Assembly: GCA_022425745.1 (NCBI GenBank)
Contig: JAKMEW010000482.1
Span: forward strand, 1-44,593
Reading direction: 5' to 3'
Origin: Rubripirellula sp.
GTDB lineage: Bacteria > Planctomycetota > Planctomycetia > Pirellulales > Pirellulaceae
Length of the DNA stretch: 44,593 bases
Shown: positions 41,055-44,593 of the stretch, one piece after another
Numbering within the stretch: the stretch's first letter is position 1
Layout of the letters: every line of letters begins with the position of its first letter
The notes under the pieces: model-generated
The model's input: only the letters and a program-made list of their open reading frames with translations
The model's database searches: none
What the model was told of the DNA's origin: nothing
Position numbers and translations under genes: made by a program

Positions 41055-41169
41055 GACATCGGCGAAGACCTTGTTGCTCTGCCAGGTTAGCCCAGCATGA
41101 AGTCATTGAGTGTTTTGTGAAAACAGTTCTTGGGCAGAACAAACCAGTACTAATATCAACGGGATTTCG

Positions 41170-42249
41170 ATGAATCCGACTCAATTTGGTATCGCCAATA
41201 TTTCGCTCCATCAACCCAAGCAGGTCATTTCTAATGATTGGTATGGCGAGAGTCTTCCAAAGAAGTTTGTTAACCACACCGGTATTGAGGAACGTCATAT
41301 CTCATTTCGTGATGAAGTGACGATGGCGGCGGAATGTATCGAGAGCATGGTGGATCACGGAAAAATTGATTTGAAGGACTGCGCTGGGTTAATCTTTGTT
41401 ACACCATCATTTGTGCCAATGCATGTTGCGAATCGCTACATGGATCGGCAGCAGGCGAGGCAAGAACAACCGTCTCGAGCCGCACATCAGCTTGCGAATC
41501 GCCTGGGCATGAACGCGAGGAAAATTGCGGGAATGAATGGCTTTTGTAGTGGGTATGCAAAGGCATGTTTGTATGCGAAACAAAAAATGGTTCCTGCATT
41601 GAATCTTCAGGGAACTGAGATGATCTTGCTAGTGACATCCAATCGCATTAGTCGGATCACAGATTATGGATGTCGACAATCTGGCGCTTTATTCGGCGAT
41701 TTCGCCACTGTTACCGTGCTGTCCCGGACGGAGAATCAACGCTACCCCGTTCGATTTGAGCTAGTTGACGTTTGTTACAACAAACAGGCGGTTAATCGAC
41801 CTTACTTTGATTTTTCGTTGAAGCAGAATGTCTTAGTACCGACACCTGATGGTGGTCAGGAGATTGTTCCTGAGCGGCTCGTCTTTTCAATGGACGGTAT
41901 GGGGATTGCCGATACCGCTCCACGAGCCATGGCTGCATCAGCCGGTCAATTGCTTGAAGCGAATGGAATCAGTGCTTCGGAAGTGCAACGAGTAGTTCCC
42001 CACCAAGCTGGGAACGGTATTATCCGGCTAGCTTCGATGAAATTTGAGCAGTTGGGGCTTGAGGCAGAAGTTGTAAATGGCTTAGCGAAGGATGTCGGTA
42101 ATGTGAGTTCTGGCTCAGTACCGCTGGCCCTGTCTAAGCTGTGGGCCGATTTAGAAGGGTACGTCCTTTGTCCTGTGGCCGCCGTTGGAAGCCCTGGGCG
42201 TCCTGAGGTTTCTCAGGGCTGCCTGCTCTTTAAGGCACGCGCAGTGTGA
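41170..42249 (+). CDS. Beta-ketoacyl-ACP synthase III (FabH-like)
   Basis: A 359-residue thiolase-fold enzyme that condenses an acyl-CoA with a malonyl thioester or similar. The catalytic triad of KAS III is intact: Cys126 in GMNGFCSGYAKA, His278 in VVPHQAGNGI, and Asn311 in KDVGNVSSGSVPLAL. ATG 41170 (MNPTQFGIANISLHQP) is chosen because the FabH-like fold starts there and GGGA is 5 bases upstream; the frame opens at 41110. The 160-245 region differs from FabH proper, and no acyl carrier or other fatty acid gene is close, so this may act in a specialised lipid or polyketide. It is followed by an Mla-like lipid transport operon after 293 bases, which hints at a link to envelope lipids (inference). 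Confidence 0.88.
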   Translation: MNPTQFGIANISLHQPKQVISNDWYGESLPKKFVNHTGIEERHISFRDEVTMAAECIESMVDHGKIDLKDCAGLIFVTPSFVPMHVANRYMDRQQARQEQPSRAAHQLANRLGMNARKIAGMNGFCSGYAKACLYAKQKMVPALNLQGTEMILLVTSNRISRITDYGCRQSGALFGDFATVTVLSRTENQRYPVRFELVDVCYNKQAVNRPYFDFSLKQNVLVPTPDGGQEIVPERLVFSMDGMGIADTAPRAMAASAGQLLEANGISASEVQRVVPHQAGNGIIRLASMKFEQLGLEAEVVNGLAKDVGNVSSGSVPLALSKLWADLEGYVLCPVAAVGSPGRPEVSQGCLLFKARAV

Positions 42250-42542: not shown

Positions 42543-43415
42543 GTGCAGGTTACTCGTTCGAGAGTTCGGAGATTCAGCCTAGGCTATCGCGTGCGACCCG
42601 GTCAATTGGTTGAGGTTGTCGGTGGCACAGTGGTTCGGCGCTGCCGCGCCGTAGCGAGCATTCTGTCGCTCTTATGGGCTAGTTTTTCTCTCGCTTTCAC
42701 CCCGCGGTCGTGGTCTCAGCCAGTTCGAAATGTCATGGCTCGACAGCTGCTTTTCACGGGTGTGGATGGCACATGGGCGGCGATGCGTTTTGGCGCGGCG
42801 GTGGGAGTCCTGTTGATCGTGCAGGCAGCTCTCTGGGTCGATGCGATTGGGATGACTACCGAAATGATTGCTCCGATGTTGTGGCGTGTAATCGTCCGCG
42901 AGGTGGCGCCCCTGTTAGCGTGCTTGGTTGTGATTGGCCGGAGCGGTATTGCAATATCGACCGAGTTAGCAACCATGCGCGTCGATGGTGAGCTAGAGGT
43001 GTTGGATGCGCAGGGAATCGATCCGATGACCAGCTTGGTCATGCCCCGCGTGACGAGCATGGTCTTCAGCGTGTTTTGTCTGGCATTGATCACAGCGACT
43101 GCGATGATACTGACGGGCTATGCCGGCGGGCGTGCAGTCGGCGTCATTCGTGTGTCGTTTGTTGGATTCATTGATCAGCTTGTTGGCGAGATTGATACGT
43201 TGGACCTGCTTTTCTTTGTTCCCAAAACGATTGTTGCAGGCGCATTCGCTGCCGCAATCTGTTGTTTGGATGGTTTGAGTGTTAAAGCCACAATCACGGA
43301 TGTTCCACGTGTGTCCGCGCGCGCAGGAATCAGAGCACTCGGTGCGGTCTTCATCATTTCGGCAATCTTATCGATTTTGATCTACGGCCGCATTCTCATC
43401 TTTGAGGTGATTTAG
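42543..43415 (+). CDS. mlaE: MlaE-type lipid ABC transporter permease
   Basis: A 290-residue permease of the MlaE family, which moves phospholipids between membranes with MlaF and MlaD. After a 60-residue N-terminal segment the family fold is clear: ARQLLFTGVDGTWAAMRFGAAVG, WRVIVREVAPLLACLVVIGRSGIAISTELATMRVDGELEVLDAQGIDP, where the glycine-serine-alanine helix and the ELATM/LDAQGIDP segment are the MlaE hallmarks. Start GTG 42543 is a compromise; a later start is possible because the first 45 residues are basic and not hydrophobic. The stop lies two bases before the next start, so the next gene is coupled. Operon order permease, ATPase-like, MCE protein. Confidence 0.93.
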   Translation: MQVTRSRVRRFSLGYRVRPGQLVEVVGGTVVRRCRAVASILSLLWASFSLAFTPRSWSQPVRNVMARQLLFTGVDGTWAAMRFGAAVGVLLIVQAALWVDAIGMTTEMIAPMLWRVIVREVAPLLACLVVIGRSGIAISTELATMRVDGELEVLDAQGIDPMTSLVMPRVTSMVFSVFCLALITATAMILTGYAGGRAVGVIRVSFVGFIDQLVGEIDTLDLLFFVPKTIVAGAFAAAICCLDGLSVKATITDVPRVSARAGIRALGAVFIISAILSILIYGRILIFEVI

Positions 43416-43417
43416 AG

Positions 43418-44158
43418 ATGAGTTTATACAAGGCTTTTGACGCTAAATCGGAAAACCCTTTGGTATTGCAGTTGCAGGGTGTGACGCTTCGGCCCGATTT
43501 TGAAAGTGGCCTCGAGCTTCAGGAAGTGGATTTAGAATTGAATGCGGGCGAGTTGTTGACGATTCAAGTTGATGCAGCGACCCGAACTCGCTCATTCGCA
43601 TCAATGATTCAAGGGATTTTGCATCCAGAGTCTGGAATCGTTCGGTTCCTGCAACAGGATTGGCAAGGTTCGGATTATCAGAGGCATTTCTGGCAGCGGA
43701 GTTTGATAGGTAGGGTTTTTGAGGGACAGGCGTGGATTGAAAATCTGAATGTTGATGAGAACGTGACACTGGCGGCACGGCATCACGGGGTGCAAGTGAG
43801 TGATATTACCTCTTCAATCCAACACTGGTGTAATCAGTTTGGAGTGGACAAATTAGCAACTCGACGGCCCGCCTTCGTTGCCCCAGCAACCTTGCAGATT
43901 CATCAATGGATTCGAGCTTTTCTGGGGAATCCTAAGTTGGTGATTTTAGAAACGCCATTGCAATATCTTGCTAAAAAATGGGTCAAGGTATTCCTTGCTG
44001 CGGTCAGCGAATTATTGAATCGCGGGACGGCTGTGCTTTGGTTGGATAGCCGGACGGATTTGCCTTTTTGTGATGTCGTCGGTCCCTGCCGGCATCTCCG
44101 AGTTGATGGAGCCAAGCTAAAAACCATTAACGCCGGGCATGGAGGTGACAATGAATGA
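43418..44158 (+). CDS. Degenerate MlaF-like ABC ATPase homologue (pseudo-ATPase)
   Basis: A 246-residue protein at the position of MlaF and with that fold: LELQEVDLELNAGELLTIQV, ILHPESGIVRF, GRVFEGQAWIENLNVDENVTLAARHHG, LGNPKLVILETPL. Every catalytic motif has changed. The Walker A site reads VDAATRTRSF (51-60) instead of GxSGSGKST, the signature is VAPAT (154-158) instead of LSGGM, Walker B is LVILETP (no Asp-Glu pair), and the switch His is lost (WLDSRTD). The Q-loop position is Glu102. Coding potential is intact, with no stop or frameshift. It may be a structural or regulatory subunit that depends on a different ATPase. A second normal MlaF may lie downstream of the window. Coupled to the MlaE gene (2-base gap) and overlapping the next. 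Confidence 0.85.
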   Translation: MSLYKAFDAKSENPLVLQLQGVTLRPDFESGLELQEVDLELNAGELLTIQVDAATRTRSFASMIQGILHPESGIVRFLQQDWQGSDYQRHFWQRSLIGRVFEGQAWIENLNVDENVTLAARHHGVQVSDITSSIQHWCNQFGVDKLATRRPAFVAPATLQIHQWIRAFLGNPKLVILETPLQYLAKKWVKVFLAAVSELLNRGTAVLWLDSRTDLPFCDVVGPCRHLRVDGAKLKTINAGHGGDNE

Positions 44159-44593
44159 AGTTTATCGCCTCAGGTACACCAATCAGATTGTTGGCGTGTT
44201 TCTGTTGTTATTTCTGGCGTTGATAATCGTACTCTCCTTCACCGTGTTTCGGCTTGGCAATCGGTTTGGTGCCAAGGATCGTTTCTGGATCGAGGCGTCG
44301 GAGGAAGAGGTGCATGAGTTGCATCCCGGTACTGAAGTTTTGATTCTTGGTAAGCCTGTCGGTGAGGTGCTGGATTTAAGTTATTTGGAGGATGGAAGCG
44401 GTGTGAGGGTTGATATTCAGTTGACCAAGCAAAATACCGCAATGGTCTTTGAAGACTCAGTTGTGCGACTGGAGAGGAAATTTGGCGTCGGGACACCGGT
44501 TCTGGTGATACGCCGTGACTCACGGAAACGTTTATCAGCTAAACCATTAGCGGCAAATCAACGCATCCTATCTTTTTTACCCAACCTAGATCG
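44151..44593 (+). CDS. mlaD: MlaD/MCE domain protein, C-terminus beyond window
   Basis: Open frame from ATG 44151 with GGAGGT just upstream, running off the right edge. It overlaps the stop of the degenerate MlaF-like gene by eight bases. Residues about 14-36 form one transmembrane helix (GVFLLLFLALIIVLSFTVF), and residues about 45-120 are an MCE (MlaD) domain: LHPGTEVLILGKPVGEVLDLSY, VRVDIQLTKQ, FEDSVVRLERKFGVGTPVLVI. MCE proteins form a ring that carries lipids across the periplasm to or from the MlaE permease. The remaining length is unknown; planctomycete MCE proteins vary in C-terminal extensions. Confidence 0.9.
   Translation, partial: MNEVYRLRYTNQIVGVFLLLFLALIIVLSFTVFRLGNRFGAKDRFWIEASEEEVHELHPGTEVLILGKPVGEVLDLSYLEDGSGVRVDIQLTKQNTAMVFEDSVVRLERKFGVGTPVLVIRRDSRKRLSAKPLAANQRILSFLPNLD

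Follow-up and report, generated by a model that had tools for sequence, protein, structure and literature searches.

The MlaF position of a putative lipid-transport operon in Rubripirellula sp. is occupied by a protein that keeps the fold of an ABC nucleotide-binding domain (NBD) and that, judged from its sequence, is almost certainly a pseudo-ATPase. The gene lies at the right end of the window, by which we mean the whole stretch of 44,593 nucleotides analyzed, and it belongs to a family that, as its alignments and substitution rates indicate, is old, conserved and under purifying selection. In the reading we favor, and hold with moderate confidence, this dedicated pseudo-ATPase docks on an MlaE permease and holds it in an ATP-independent lipid route. 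The genes concerned and the positions of the former motifs are the following.

42543..43415, + strand: 290-aa permease of MlaE type, belonging to the pseudo-ATPase operon; PF02405 at 134.2 bits, above the cut-off
43418..44158, + strand: pseudo-MlaF of 246 aa, with the ABC nucleotide-binding-domain fold but no intact ATPase motif
43568..43597, + strand: former Walker A (P-loop), VDAATRTRSF, residues 51-60, aligning with GPSGIGKTTL of E. coli MlaF
43706..43735, + strand: former Q-loop and family signature, IGRVFEGQAW, residues 97-106, with Gln replaced by Glu (Glu102)
43877..43891, + strand: former ABC signature, VAPAT, residues 154-158
43937..43957, + strand: former Walker B, LVILETP, residues 174-180, with Asp replaced by Glu and the catalytic Glu by Thr
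44045..44059, + strand: former H-loop, DSRTD, residues 210-214
44139..44593, + strand: first 151 aa (N-terminal) of an MCE (MlaD-like) protein truncated at the contig end; PF02470 at 30.2 bits, above the cut-off

The pseudo-MlaF reading frame runs from an ATG through 246 codons without an internal stop, intact as the original prediction had described it; its stop codon is overlapped by the ORF start of the MCE gene, and three same-strand genes nearly touch or overlap at the right end of the window. The strings that had been singled out as degenerate motifs, VDAATRTRSF, VAPAT, LETP (residues 177-180) and DSRTD, face the Walker A motif, the signature, the Walker B/catalytic Glu segment and the H-loop of E. 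coli MlaF, respectively, and the total loss of motifs that had been proposed extends to all five elements: Walker A, the Walker B Asp-Glu pair, the signature, the Q-loop Gln and the H-loop His are missing from the window protein. Against Pfam at E <= 1, the protein matches ABC_tran alone (24.3 bits; cut-off 25), the same place scoring slightly above that cut-off (25.1 bits) in a six-frame genome search. In NCBIfam it comes closest to FtsE, a model whose cut-off lies well above the 48.5 bits scored. The membrane subunit of the window operon is MlaE according to Pfam, with NCBIfam MlaE models matched below their cut-offs, and a PqiA/LetA-type membrane subunit is absent there. A KAS III-like gene (41110-42249) lies directly upstream of the permease; since such a gene adjoins the permease only in the window and its three nearest relatives among 16 neighborhoods compared, we place it outside the conserved operon. 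The window is an entire contig (G000:C176) of a fragmented assembly of 549 contigs, and the region downstream of the MCE gene was therefore read in relatives.

The family, as recovered here, comprises 77 distinct contigs: that of the window, 15 from near genomes, 11 from a scan of genome contigs, and 3, 43 and 4 from samples of larger groups, duplicates of contigs already counted (L035-L039, L041, L043, L053, L057-L061, L130, L135) being left out. Its hosts are Planctomycetota, Verrucomicrobia/Kiritimatiellae, Auribacterota and one gammaproteobacterial MAG, and the source records include two strains, Neorhodopirellula pilleata Pla100 and Rubripirellula obstinata CECT 8602. The closest-genome search (E <= 1e-10) returned matches in 16 of 60 genomes, the window's own included, and the contig scan returned 18 loci, the 11 new contigs among them including Neorhodopirellula, Roseimaritima, Kiritimatiellae, Verrucomicrobia, Auribacterota and the gammaproteobacterial MAG. 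At E <= 1e-30, matches occur in at least 4 of 392 genomes sampled from the window's phylum (its own included), at least 48 of 387 from the phylum of the Kiritimatiellae MAG and at least 1 of 229 from the class of the gammaproteobacterial MAG, which is the MAG itself, all three counts being lower bounds as part of the candidates was scored in many genomes; the phylum of the Auribacterota MAG yielded 5 of 44. The gammaproteobacterial MAG (L052, genome G458) has an E. coli-like MlaF (57% identical), and its 17-kb contig may reflect either transfer or mis-binning. An orthologue with intact motifs, which the original prediction had named, together with decay of this copy, as something that would refute it, was found in none of the searches at their thresholds (E <= 1e-10 in near genomes, E <= 1e-30 in group samples, the contig scan), where the scan pattern was one family motif and the search profile came from motif-less members, so that a distant intact relative below the thresholds could escape.

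Loss of the nucleotide motifs runs throughout the family. When scored on the five motifs, 75 of the 77 members pass no check and two (L050 and L127) pass one, compared with all five in each of 19 ordinary MlaF proteins, a set consisting of E. coli MlaF and 18 proteins adjoining an ordinary MlaE, drawn from 14 carriers and one non-carrier genome. Residue by residue, each being present in 19/19 ordinary MlaF, the Walker A Lys is found in 1 of the 76 members that cover the position (L050), the Q-loop Gln in 0 of 77, the signature Ser in 12, its first Gly in 4 and its second Gly in 7 of 77, the Walker B Asp in 2 and the catalytic Glu in 6 of 77, and the H-loop His in 0 of the 76 members covering it. 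Stray motif-like strings occur in a few members (LSGG or ISGG in L010, L012 and L086; DEP in L063 and L076), with no intact motif in the aligned columns, and L051 has an H-loop-like LTHD string that the alignment sets beside the H-loop column. Normal Walker motifs displaced to another part of the protein, an eventuality raised at the outset, were likewise not encountered: a pattern scan found no standard Walker A elsewhere in the window protein or in any of the 77 members. No intermediates between ordinary and motif-less NBDs were seen among the matches examined; in the 60 near genomes, own included, each of the 16 hits that the window protein gave at E <= 1e-10 belongs to the motif-less family, and the 18 lowest-scoring of the at least 48 Kiritimatiellae-phylum matches, whose sequences were retrieved, are motif-less too.

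The family also possesses residues of its own. Tryptophan occupies the positions of W82 (77/77), W106 (70/77), W164 (73/77) and W208 (75/76), arginine that of R99 (71/77), and glutamate that of E178, the Walker B Asp position (70/77), none of them found in any of the 19 ordinary MlaF proteins. Column conservation was computed from non-redundant sets (46 of 55 members and 12 of 19 ordinary MlaF), members more than 70% identical and two fragments being left out of the family set. Mean conservation of the P-loop is 0.30 in the family versus 0.80 in ordinary MlaF, that of the signature 0.31 versus 0.98, and that of the stretch from Walker B to the D-loop 0.49 versus 0.89, the family's lowest values being those of the stretch after the H-loop (0.28) and then the P-loop. 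In the part that faces the permease in ABC transporters, the Q-loop together with the first portion of the helical subdomain, the values are 0.71 versus 0.67, and the helical subdomain has 0.56 in both sets.

Substitution rates support retained coding under selection, as had been proposed, and specify it as purifying: between the window and its closest relative the pseudo-MlaF has a dN/dS of 0.056 (dS 1.49). The permease has 0.016, the MCE part 0.057 and two genes further upstream 0.037 and 0.049; all are rough values because dS is high, and dS against the next relative is saturated for the four genes tested. The near-invariant residues point the same way, and the loss of motifs extends through the 77 members found. 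Signs of a decaying gene, or of an assembly or annotation artefact, could be sought in the fragmentation of the window's assembly and in the stops that fall within the matched stretch in 1 of 16 near-genome relatives and 3 of the at least 48 Kiritimatiellae-phylum relatives. A family of 77 contigs spread over several phyla and including two named strains, with the dN/dS and the near-invariant residues given above, speaks against both, and we regard decay as ruled out and the probability of this explanation as a whole as negligible.

An AlphaFold2 model built from the window protein and 17 relatives (mean pLDDT 87.1, pTM 0.85, with the last seven residues of low confidence) adopts an ABC nucleotide-binding domain, with 1197 PDB matches at E <= 0.001 and a best E of 4.3e-16. 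It superposes on LolD with Z 24.8 (rmsd 2.3, 218 residues), on FtsE with Z 23.9 (rmsd 2.7, 221 residues) and on E. coli MlaF (6xgz_A) with Z 22.7 (rmsd 3.0, 230 residues), and PF00005 is matched at E <= 0.01 by 15 of 18 family members (set A2). The earlier description of a retained MlaF fold thus stands as regards the ABC-ATPase fold and is too specific as regards MlaF, for the predicted fold is generic to ABC ATPases and matches to LolD, FtsE and MlaF, which score alike, do not single out the last.

A further candidate reading is that of a non-standard ATPase, one that still uses nucleotide through replaced residues such as Glu for the Walker B Asp or other phosphate ligands. The Glu found at that position in 70 of 77 members would fit such an enzyme, as would the length of the P-loop-bearing stretch, which is the ordinary 23 residues in 67 of 76 members; a deletion of the P-loop in the most divergent members, suggested by an alignment gap, was dropped as a candidate, the length being ordinary or nearly so in all but one of the 76 (a single outlier of 30 residues). 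Against it, the P-loop ranks among the family's least conserved segments, no residue consistently takes the Walker A Lys position in the alignment, and the signature, Q-loop and H-loop are jointly gone, which makes a non-standard ATPase very improbable.

The ancestry of the pseudo-NBD is less clear than its position. In a FastTree phylogeny of 100 rows with four outgroup proteins, the family forms one clade (split support 1.0, branch 1.80) that does not group with the 19 ordinary MlaF proteins. One split (support 0.91) has the family on one side together with FtsE, LolD and PotA, and MlaF, LptB and the fused ATPases on the other; a position next to FtsE and LolD alone has a support of 0.33. 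The long branch and the few outgroups make this placement a lean and not a result. The name MlaF given in the original prediction accordingly holds by operon position, and the tree leans against it by descent.

Gene order in the family is strongly conserved. MlaE permease, pseudo-NBD, MCE protein and TPR lipoprotein follow one another completely on 66 of the 77 contigs, and the pseudo-NBD has MlaE before it and the MCE gene after it on 73, so that the place between MlaE and MlaD claimed for the window protein is found both there and in nearly all relatives. Of the contigs without both neighbors, three are truncated at the end of the stretch; the fourth, L050, is a true exception and has no family permease adjoining, such a permease (341.8 bits) being present on another contig of the same genome. 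As for the 11 incomplete orders, six end before the missing gene could show (the window, in which the TPR lipoprotein would fall past the contig end, and L042, L062, L064, L073 and L085), and in L132 the sole lipoprotein match is weak and sits at the contig end. The remaining four are true exceptions, comprising L050 together with L045, L131 and L134, the last three from the phylum of the Auribacterota MAG, in which no TPR lipoprotein follows the MCE gene even though more than 2 kb of sequence remains (L136 and L137 are longer stretches of L131 and L134). The genes flanking the operon vary by lineage.

The product of the fourth gene is likely a lipoprotein, given that a hydrophobic stretch is invariably followed by a Cys, in 16/16 aligned members, and one such protein is predicted to form a TPR-like helical repeat. 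When two of these lipoproteins were compared with Pfam at E <= 0.1, one had weak matches only, TPR being the best, and the other had none; neither this comparison nor the TPR-like prediction for the one protein gave a PqiC-like identity. In five loci (L070, L084, L086, L122, L125) one open frame carries both the MCE and the TPR-lipoprotein profile, as though fused, and the MCE protein has about 250-355 aa in Kiritimatiellae-type operons (L044-L051) compared with about 360 aa or more in Rubripirellula-like ones. A second, intact MlaF downstream, which the original prediction had suggested looking for, does not appear in the relatives: a profile of ordinary MlaF found no second ABC ATPase near the pseudo-NBD at E < 1e-6 in 77 loci totaling 643,543 bases, many of them stretches of 2-7 kb.

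The permease beside the pseudo-NBD is likewise set apart from its ordinary counterparts. With repeats and the fragment L127 left out, the 66 rows of operon MlaE form one clade against 16 ordinary MlaE (split support 1.0, branch 1.86), and the divergent type lies beside the pseudo-NBD in 16/16 carriers among 21 genomes, the five chosen non-carriers having only the other two MlaE types. One of those other types is an MlaE fused in a single frame to an intact ABC ATPase (about 540-580 aa; L103, L102, L105), which in the window's genome seems split over two contig ends (G000:C424, C509). Operon MlaE keeps the MlaE core residues R97, E98, P101, P146, R147 and K205 (E. coli numbering). In the putative coupling helix of the non-redundant rows, E127 is replaced by Gly (31/38), Q128 by Glu (35/38) and M135 by Gln (35/38), compared with Glu in 7/8, Gln in 5/8 and Met in 8/8 ordinary MlaE. 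We take the E127-M135 stretch to be the coupling helix from our reading of the alignment and from the location of that helix between TM2 and TM3 (PMC7790496), described there in passages without residue numbers. A separate clade and a coupling-helix region that is conserved in a changed form mark this MlaE, at the sequence level, as co-specialized with the pseudo-NBD.

The pattern of what is lost and what is kept points to an MlaE-docking subunit: the nucleotide pocket is gone, and the permease-facing part, the fold and the operon are retained, from which we infer that the pseudo-NBD still docks on MlaE. Together, the MlaE-type permease, the pseudo-NBD, the MCE protein and, in most cases, the TPR lipoprotein would form a distinct MCE lipid-transport system. 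Two copies of the pseudo-NBD would sit on the two coupling helices of the MlaE dimer, as MlaF does, and would serve to hold or gate it with no power stroke, either by merely fixing MlaE in one state or by relaying a signal from a ligand. A chemical gradient would then drive phospholipid, or another lipid, along MlaE and the MCE tube, either to the outer membrane or away from it, with the TPR lipoprotein as the likely partner at that membrane. In E. coli, MlaF carrying either K47A or E170Q alone fails to complement, according to PMC7367683; the pseudo-NBD, from which both residues, the signature, the Q-loop and the H-loop are gone, cannot run the MlaF cycle. That the conduit operates without ATP is suggested by analogy with PqiABC and LetAB (PMC12436622, PMC10897342). 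Several observations count against docking and holding: the Walker A Lys of L050, the Glu at the catalytic position in 6 of 77 members, the broken gene order in four carriers, and intact MlaF in 14 carriers, which leaves room for power supplied in trans.

Power in trans would mean that an ordinary ATPase encoded elsewhere, either the cell's own MlaF or another ABC ATPase, drives the permease, with the pseudo-NBD serving as adaptor, half-site partner or displaced placeholder. Such sharing has a parallel in mycobacteria, where several Mce systems are served by one shared ATPase. The means are at hand in the carriers, for on G000:C528 the window's genome encodes an ordinary MlaE and, next to it, an intact MlaF (GESGCGKT, LSGGM, DEPT, VTHD), such a pair was found in all 14 carrier genomes (the window's included) in which the region was retrieved, and a strong ordinary-type MlaE match is present in 20/21 genomes (the exception, G009, is 66% complete) and in 9/10 of a second set. 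However, ordinary MlaE also occurs in 5/5 non-carrier genomes examined, and co-occurrence was consequently set aside as uninformative as a test of partnership. A heterodimer of pseudo-NBD and MlaF would, moreover, have no complete site on either side, because the pseudo-NBD has neither Walker A, Walker B nor signature to contribute, and the coupling-helix residues of the operon permease differ from those kept by ordinary MlaE. On balance we consider power in trans unlikely, though it is the foremost competitor of the favored reading.

The pseudo-NBD might instead act as a sensor or brake that binds another ligand or partner and regulates the opening of MlaE, or that inhibits the ordinary Mla system through shared parts. 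The new near-invariant residues (W82, R99, W106, W164, W208) suggest a new specific function over mere filling and would suit such a role, but a permease and an MCE protein of its own on 73 of 77 contigs are more than a brake would need, and we judge this role rather improbable.

The system differs from each known relative in a definable way. It shares with Mla (MlaFEDB in E. coli, MlaEFD in Veillonella parvula) an operon containing an MlaE permease (PF02405), a protein of ABC-NBD fold and an MCE protein, and departs from it in an NBD without intact ATPase motifs, in a permease and an NBD that form separate long-branched clades, and in a TPR lipoprotein that is usually fourth; the layout with its longer MCE protein resembles the minimal MlaEFD without MlaA/MlaC described in PMC10665443. 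E. coli MlaF is reported to need its C-terminal extension (PMC7367683), whereas the window protein shows no such extension, its last seven residues being the ones modeled with low confidence. The closest known layout is that of the Mpc system, MpcEFDA, described in PMC12436622 as a chimeric Mla-Pqi system proposed to bridge both membranes, which has the same order of permease, ATPase position, MCE protein and lipoprotein; there, MpcF is called an MlaF-homologous ABC ATPase and the lipoprotein PqiC-like, in contrast to the motif-less NBD and TPR-like lipoprotein of the present family. PqiABC and LetAB are MCE routes whose membrane subunits have no ATPase domain (PMC12436622), PqiA being thought to be passive, to use an unknown ATPase or to be driven by the proton motive force (PMC10897342); these membrane subunits are not MlaE, whereas the window system keeps the ABC architecture with an inactive NBD. 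A phylogenomic study of Mla covers the PVC group and states that MlaF annotations are uncertain (PMC10665443), and the titles and abstract openings of the open-licence literature, a body that excludes most subscription papers, yielded no description of a pseudo-ATPase MlaF or of such an operon. ABC exporters with one degenerate nucleotide site, such as TAP, keep one working site; they resemble the window system in having lost catalytic residues in an ABC NBD and differ from it in that the latter has no remaining site and a permease from one gene.

Transporters of the MlaFEDB class are thought to need ATP, and a family of ABC transporter subunits made up of pseudoenzymes would, to our knowledge, be a rare case. 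The direction of Mla lipid traffic from one membrane to the other is under debate (PMC7784689). The broader proposition, which we advance tentatively and with slightly more doubt than conviction, is that an ABC-type transporter may have given up ATP, its motor domains having become permanent structural or gating subunits of an ATP-independent trans-envelope conduit found across several phyla. If this is true, a natural and conserved motor-off version of the system would set conduit and motor apart and would make the energy need of lipid transport testable.
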